Shown piece after piece: positions 4,245 through 42,968 of a DNA stretch of 64,000 bases. Source of the stretch: Thermococcus cleftensis (GTDB taxonomy: Archaea > Methanobacteriota_B > Thermococci > Thermococcales > Thermococcaceae); assembly GCF_000265525.1 (NCBI RefSeq), contig NC_018015.1, forward strand, positions 1,276,322 through 1,340,321, in the 5' to 3' direction. Position 1 is the first letter of the stretch, and each line of letters opens with the position of its first letter. The notes beneath the pieces were generated by a model. That model saw only the letters and a list, made by a program, of their open reading frames with translations. It searched no databases and had not been told where the DNA came from. A program made the position numbers and the translations under genes.

Positions 4245-4542
4245 GCCGCTTAAGGGTTTTGCAAAAATTTTGTATCGGTGGGGTTCCGCCCTATTGGGTG
4301 GAGCGCCCGAACAGGGCGCGACAAAACCCGGGCGCCAAGACGGCGGCGTCGGGGGGACAGGGTGCAAAGCACCCACAATGAACCCCGCCCTCCAGCCCGG
4401 GTCACAGCAATGTGCGCTCCCGAGGAAACGCCGAAAGGCGGACCCCTCGGGGGTAAGGCAGGCCCGGCACCTCGACCAAACCCCGGACGGACATAGGTAC
4501 TTCCCCTTTGAGGGAAGTCCCACCGGCCGTACTCCTTGCTCA
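4245..4542 (+). other. rRNA operon leader (5' external spacer)
   Basis: About 300 bases of GC-rich leader between the probable promoter and 16S. It contains several self-complementary stretches and, near its end, the left half of the 16S processing stem. No protein gene is supported; open frames here on both strands are only a product of high GC content. Confidence 0.7.
4457..4491 (+). other. 16S processing stem, left arm (bulge-helix-bulge)
   Basis: This 35-base arm pairs with 6042-6076. Outer helix CACCTC/GAGGTG, then a 4-bp helix GACC/GGTC flanked by 3-nt bulges AAA (4478-4480) and TAA (6057-6059), then CCCCGGACGGA with its complement. That is the canonical bulge-helix-bulge cut by archaeal splicing endonuclease, giving pre-16S that is ligated into a circle. 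Confidence 0.9.
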
Positions 4543-6284: not shown

Positions 6285-9305
<3,021 letters not shown>

Positions 9306-42377: not shown

Positions 42378-42406
42378 GGCTCTTCCCATGAACTTTCAGA
42401 CTAAAC

Positions 42407-42415
42407 CTTAATAAG
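42407..42415. promoter_or_regulatory. Two-way TATA element (UPF0282 gene and C/D sRNA)
   Basis: CTTAATAAG reads nearly the same on both strands. On the minus strand it places the UPF0282 start near 42385; on the plus strand it places a start near 42436, directly before the C box of the sRNA. One element may serve both. Confidence 0.45.
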
Positions 42416-42437: not shown

Positions 42438-42496
42438 ACCGATGAAGAGTGTCATCCCTCCTGATGCCAAGATGATGACATTATCCCCACCTGAGG
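42438..42496 (+). ncRNA. C/D box methylation guide sRNA with two 23S targets
   Basis: All four boxes are present with canonical spacing: C box GATGAAGA (42441-42448), 12-nt guide, D' box CTGA (42461-42464), 7-nt linker, C' box ATGATGA (42472-42478), 12-nt guide, D box CTGA (42491-42494). The D' guide pairs over 10 contiguous bases with 23S at 8794-8803, and the D guide over 9 with 8816-8824 in the peptidyl-transferase region. The fifth-base rule predicts 2'-O-methylation at G8797 and G8819. The sRNA would be used by fibrillarin, Nop5 and L7Ae. Its 3' end abuts the ribosome site of the next gene. Confidence 0.85.
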
Positions 42497-42503
42497 TGGT
42501 CCC

Positions 42504-42968
42504 ATGCTTGGTTTCTTCAGGAAAAAGAAGAAGGAAACCTACGGGCCGCTCGTCTACCTGAGCGAGCCCACGATACTCTACCACACCCGCACTGAGAAGG
42601 CCATTCTTGAGATACTCGAGGAGAAGCTCGGCTCCAACAACTTCGTGGTTCCCTCCGACTACGGTCTCAGGACAACCGACCACATGATTCCAGATGCCGA
42701 GATATTCGTGGCCATAGCGATAGTCGGGAAGTTCACCTCCCTCGTCGTCAGGGAGATTGAGATGGCCAAAAAGCACGGAAAGAAAATCTACACCCTCGAC
42801 GTGGCCAGAAAGGGCGATGAGATACTCTACCTCTTCGAGGAGGGAATCCCCGAGAGGATAGAGTGGCTAACGCCGGAGGAAACCCAGGAACTCTACGCGG
42901 CCTTCCGCGGCGAGGACTTCTCGGGATTCATGAAGTTCTTCTTCGGAGACAGAAAAAGACAGTGGTGA
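42504..42968 (+). CDS. Conserved hypothetical protein (154 aa), Rossmann-like
   Basis: No named family recognised. After a basic N-terminus (FFRKKKKE), the soluble product has alternating strands and helices, with PDAEIFVAIAIVGKFTSLVVREIEMAKKHGKKIYTLD in the middle. That arrangement of acidic-loop strand, helix, then GKKIYTLD strand is like nucleoside 2-deoxyribosyltransferase or TIR-type folds; this is only a fold-level guess. GGTGGTCCC precedes ATG 42504, and the ribosome site directly follows the D box of the sRNA. It converges on the Nfn large subunit. Confidence 0.6.
   Translation: MLGFFRKKKKETYGPLVYLSEPTILYHTRTEKAILEILEEKLGSNNFVVPSDYGLRTTDHMIPDAEIFVAIAIVGKFTSLVVREIEMAKKHGKKIYTLDVARKGDEILYLFEEGIPERIEWLTPEETQELYAAFRGEDFSGFMKFFFGDRKRQW

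Follow-up and report, generated by a model that had tools for sequence, protein, structure and literature searches.

The sR55 locus and its surroundings

The window (the whole stretch of 64,000 nucleotides from Thermococcus cleftensis that was analysed) harbours a 59-nt C/D box sRNA at 42438–42496. Its boxes, 12-nt guides and linker can be read directly from the sequence and agree base for base, coordinates included, with the initial annotation (Table 1). The C, D', C' and D boxes are predicted to form the k-turn and k-loop of archaeal C/D box sRNAs. A cmscan search of the 64-kb window matched the RNA end to end (model positions 1–65) to Rfam family RF01307 (sR55), at 70.2 bits compared to a gathering cutoff of 35 bits. 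This RNA represents the copy, in Thermococcus, of an already known archaeal C/D box sRNA, having boxes and D' guide in common with the Rfam family and catalogued under the alias Tko-sR54 in T. kodakarensis; that it might be an unlisted RNA, as had been surmised, is excluded by this full-length match. RNA folding of sR55 yielded no significant structure (z -1.15), as expected because k-turn RNA is folded by protein.

Table 1. Elements of the sR55 locus and its predicted 23S rRNA targets (window coordinates)
Feature	Position	Strand	Evidence
23S segment paired with D' guide (Gm predicted at 8797)	8794..8803	+	10-bp pairing
23S segment paired with D guide (Gm predicted at 8819, E. coli G2446)	8816..8824	+	9-bp pairing
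Putative BRE/TATA promoter (TAAACC TTAATAAG), ~25 nt before sRNA 5' end	42402..42415	+	sequence
sR55 C/D box sRNA (Rfam RF01307)	42438..42496	+	cmscan 70.2 bits, E 5.6e-16
Terminal stem 5' strand ACC, pairing with GGT 42495-42497	42438..42440	+	stem counts over 84 loci
C box ATGAAGA, variable 5th base (k-turn 3b)	42442..42448	+	3b:3n counts, 84 loci
D' guide, 10 bp with 23S 8794-8803	42449..42460	+	pairing search of 23S
D' box CTGA	42461..42464	+	sequence
Linker TGCCAAG, 7 nt	42465..42471	+	sequence
C' box ATGATGA	42472..42478	+	sequence
D guide, 9 bp with 23S 8816-8824	42479..42490	+	pairing search of 23S
D box CTGA	42491..42494	+	sequence
Shine-Dalgarno core GAGGTG of downstream gene	42493..42498	+	6-nt exact complement of 16S tail
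Conserved downstream gene, 154 aa, without Pfam or NCBIfam match	42504..42968	+	present in 84/94 genomes

The gene upstream of sR55 is divergent and codes for an UPF0282/PRK04286 MBL-fold protein. It had been proposed as conserved context, a view ruled out by upstream sequences that differ among relatives and a downstream gene that stays constant. The latter, encoding a protein of 154 aa, starts 7–9 nt past the sR55-matched stretch in 80 out of 84 loci (with GTG as start codon in G093). Four loci deviate. In G001, the gene is located on another contig; in G075, G079 and G084, it is separated from sR55 by about 700 nt that include a flavodoxin-like gene, and it has its own GAGGTG leader. The AlphaFold model of the 154-aa protein (pLDDT 81.7) bears a weak likeness to TIR-like folds and to nucleoside 2'-deoxyribosyltransferases (Foldseek, E = 3.2e-3 at best). 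For comparison with the putative promoter, TATA boxes of T. kodakarensis are located at a median of 23 bp upstream of the transcription start site (TSS) (PMC4247193).

Further RNAs were observed in the same genome. A weak sR55-like paralogue (G000:C1:1687883-1687937, - strand; 30.6 bits, i.e. under the cutoff) has a CATCCCTC-CTGA stretch in common with sR55, next to other guide parts, and has relatives in G052, G061 and G080. Additionally, the known H/ACA RNA family Pab19 is represented at 4303–4406 (+ strand) of the window, immediately upstream of the 16S rRNA gene; for T. kodakarensis, Pab19 has been described as a likely cotranscript of the rRNA operon (PMC4247193).

Distribution across Thermococcales and the T. 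kodakarensis ortholog

An order-wide search detected sR55 above the cutoff in 83 out of 94 Thermococcales genomes, covering all six genera, and in none of 14 control genomes; the genomes lacking a match are mostly incomplete assemblies. Conservation of the boxes in relatives, one of the points on which the annotation should stand or fall, was found throughout the order. The departure of the C box from RUGAUGA, which had been pointed out at the outset, is real, but is no defect, since relatives carry A, G or T at the base in question. It occupies k-turn position 3b, the partner of which (3n) is the U of CUGA, i.e. position 2 of the D box. Over the 84 loci, the 3b:3n combinations are U:U (59), G:U (12), A:U (9) and G:C (4). 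The CCGA form of the D box, seen four times, is always accompanied by the C box ATGAGGA. Because position 3b varies in this way and the folding of k-turns is known to be modulated by the 3b:3n pair (PMC5689011), the deviation represents normal variation at a variable k-turn position. The terminal stem is ACC/GGT in 68 loci, GCC/GGT in 12 and GCC/GGC in one.

The T. kodakarensis (G023) match at 1476852–1476910 coincides with the published sR52 (1476851–1476917; alias Tko-sR54), an ortholog situated identically in front of the 154-aa gene; its expression as a small RNA of about 60 nt is on record (PMC9014305). Two further matches in this genome agree with published positions, namely a second sRNA (963854–963913, published as sR31 at 963853–963919) and the 23S rRNA, the match to which falls inside the published gene. 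Compared to T. cleftensis, sR52 has the C box ATGAGGA instead of ATGAAGA and the linker TGTCGAG instead of TGCCAAG. Its TSS was mapped at 1476850, which is 2 nt before the sR55-matched stretch, and 28,701 small-RNA reads were assigned to it (PMC9014305). A circular form was likewise reported, the circular reads of which drop from 467 to 6 upon deletion of the RNA ligase TK1545 (PMC9014305). Start site, abundance and circularisation are thus taken from published work on this ortholog.

Guide pairing and predicted 23S rRNA targets

In the whole 23S gene, the longest Watson-Crick runs spanning the N+5 base comprise 10 bp for the D' guide (over G8797) and 9 bp for the D guide (over G8819), each of them unique. 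The pairings first described for the two guides were thereby reproduced exactly, and the N+5 rule confirms G8797 and G8819, 22 nt apart, as the predicted targets. G8819 directly precedes G8820, the G of GGGGAUAACAG in the peptidyl-transferase segment, likewise as originally described. Following established numbering, G8820 is E. coli G2447, so that G8819 is G2446; E. coli A2451 in turn corresponds to yeast 25S A2820, which places G8819 at yeast G2815 and, provided that no indel intervenes, G8797 at yeast G2793. On this alignment with yeast, the predicted targets of the T. cleftensis sRNA, 22 nt apart, are the 23S/25S positions that snR48 and snR38 address in yeast. Yeast, however, employs two separate snoRNAs and Thermococcus one dual-guide sRNA, the likeness drawn here being one of position. 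The 22-nt spacing recurs in yeast Gm2793 (snR48) and Gm2815 (snR38) (PMC5199042) as well as in human Gm4370/Gm4392 and Arabidopsis Gm2794/Gm2816 (PMC11542601). This common spacing independently supports the equivalence of the sites, and most likely sR55 directs two predicted 2'-O-methylations at the same two positions as the eukaryotic Gm residues. Literature searches on T. kodakarensis rRNA modification retrieved no methylation data, from RiboMethSeq or from structures, for G8797 or G8819, and P. abyssi is not entered for either of these sites in the table of a 2024 review, which is restricted to sites also known in plants (PMC11542601).

Pairing of the D' guide with 23S rRNA is universal in the order (10–11 bp), and the guide is almost invariant over 10 nt. 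Opposite guide position +2, the 23S has A in Thermococcus and in the majority of Pyrococcus genomes, and T in G012 and the remaining genera; the guide carries T where the 23S has A, and A where the 23S has T. Among the 64 genomes for which both the 23S base and the guide base are known, the two are complementary in 62 (23S/guide A/T in 48, T/A in 14). The co-variation is broken by G076 and G077 (A/A). In these two genomes of genus g4, the 23S segment is identical to that of the window over 261 nt and the D' guide of sR55 still fits the other 23S allele, as would be expected after an rRNA exchange between genera. When mapped on a tree of the neighbouring protein, guide and target change together in two independent pairs with branch support, two further pairs show no difference in the guide, and none runs in the opposite direction. 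The D' guide co-varies with its 23S target, but the number of independent events does not suffice for significance in a sign test.

Pairing of the D guide is retained at 9 bp in the tested genomes of Thermococcus, g2, g4 and g5 despite changes in the surrounding sequence. In Pyrococcus, by contrast, the D guide is degenerate, with only 6–7 bp remaining at G2446, and the linker is longer than in Thermococcus copies of the family. A pattern search for a replacement G2446 guide in Pyrococcus retrieved only matches without C/D layout. Accordingly, the dual guide near the peptidyl-transferase centre proposed in the initial annotation is strengthened by family match, order-wide conservation, D' co-variation and the expressed ortholog, but its D target is not conserved in Pyrococcus. 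This uneven conservation, universal for D' and falling off in Pyrococcus for D, would also fit an sRNA in which only the D' guide is functional, G8819 being a weak target of the D guide or one confined to certain lineages. Such a restriction is rather improbable, as the 9-bp D pairing is retained in the four other genera tested and the site equivalent to G8819 carries Gm in yeast (Gm2815), human and Arabidopsis.

Overlap with the Shine-Dalgarno sequence and transcript fate

The 16S 3' tail of the organism reads GATCACCTCCT, and its GAGGTG complement overlaps the D box as well as the GGU in the terminal stem. This Shine-Dalgarno (SD) overlap occurs in 80 of the 84 loci, and GAGGTG is present at every locus where the 154-aa gene follows; in G001, where sR55 and the gene are apart, the stem consists of GCC/GGC and no SD core is left. 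In T. kodakarensis, the 3' junction of circular sR52 was placed at 1476917 (±5 nt; PMC9014305), the base preceding the AUG of the downstream gene at 1476918. A circle ending one base before the AUG implies that the mature guide RNA holds the whole SD. It is thus probable that one transcript can take either of two fates, guide RNA or translatable leader. The overlap of D box and SD is the only part of the present findings that may be new.

The same arrangement of D box, SD and ATG was observed for a second C/D-like RNA in the genome (G000:C1:1427997-1428060, - strand), the D' guide of which pairs over 10 bp with 23S rRNA around C7139. It had no match in Rfam, and its strict pattern was absent from other Thermococcus.

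Through a leader k-turn, L7Ae masks the SD on the mRNA encoding it (PMC5539422), and at the level of sequence the sR55 locus has the same organization, i.e. a k-turn overlapping the SD of the downstream gene in a 5' leader. The L7Ae-binding leader k-turns differ from sR55 in that they are not rRNA guide RNAs. Furthermore, snoRNAs of T. kodakarensis can lie in 5'-UTRs, some of them maybe acting as cis-regulators (Jager et al., PMC4247193). Together with the near-fixed start-codon spacing, these parallels raise the question of whether sR55 acts chiefly in cis, as a leader k-turn of the 154-aa gene through which L7Ae masks the SD, with a guide role secondary or absent. The near-invariance of the D' guide over 10 nt and its co-variation with 23S rRNA, the abundance and circularisation of the small RNA in T. 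kodakarensis, and the persistence of sR55 apart from the gene in G001 speak against this and render it unlikely. That box pattern and guide matches are products of chance can be dismissed: C/D boxes are short, but among 20,000 pairs of 12-mers drawn at random from the same window, only 5 did as well (both runs at least 9 bp over N+5, targets at most 100 nt apart), which bears out the low chance expectation voiced initially, and the family score, the conservation in six genera and the expressed ortholog likewise refute it.

The reading preferred here, with a probability of about 0.9, is that the sR55 copy forms a 5' leader transcribed from its own promoter and is either trimmed and circularised to guide the predicted Gm8797 and Gm8819, or serves as part of an SD-led mRNA. 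It builds on the anatomy, family membership, conservation, guide-target co-variation and SD overlap recorded above. A single promoter (BRE/TATA near 42402–42415) would give rise to one transcript starting at the sRNA and providing the 5' leader of the 154-aa gene. Binding of L7Ae to the k-turns of sR55 would be followed by loading of Nop5 and fibrillarin, trimming and circularisation, and the D' guide would direct 2'-O-methylation of G8797 and the D guide that of G8819, adjoining the peptidyl-transferase centre. Since bases of the D box and the terminal stem also belong to the downstream SD, each transcript could probably serve as guide RNA or as SD-led mRNA, not both. More tentative, and on balance doubtful, is the extension that such exclusive fates apply across the order, with free L7Ae and Nop5 setting downstream translation and release of the guide leaving an mRNA that begins at or next to the AUG.

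If the latter holds true, the capacity for ribosome modification (free L7Ae and Nop5) would set the translation of a nucleoside-deoxyribosyltransferase-like gene. A single archaeal guide for two predicted ribose methylations that eukaryotes install with two snoRNAs may be useful in its own right, and the locus offers a clean order-wide case of a guide RNA whose D box is shared with a ribosome-binding site. The competition between sRNP assembly and translation would be directly approachable in T. kodakarensis, for which genetics are available.
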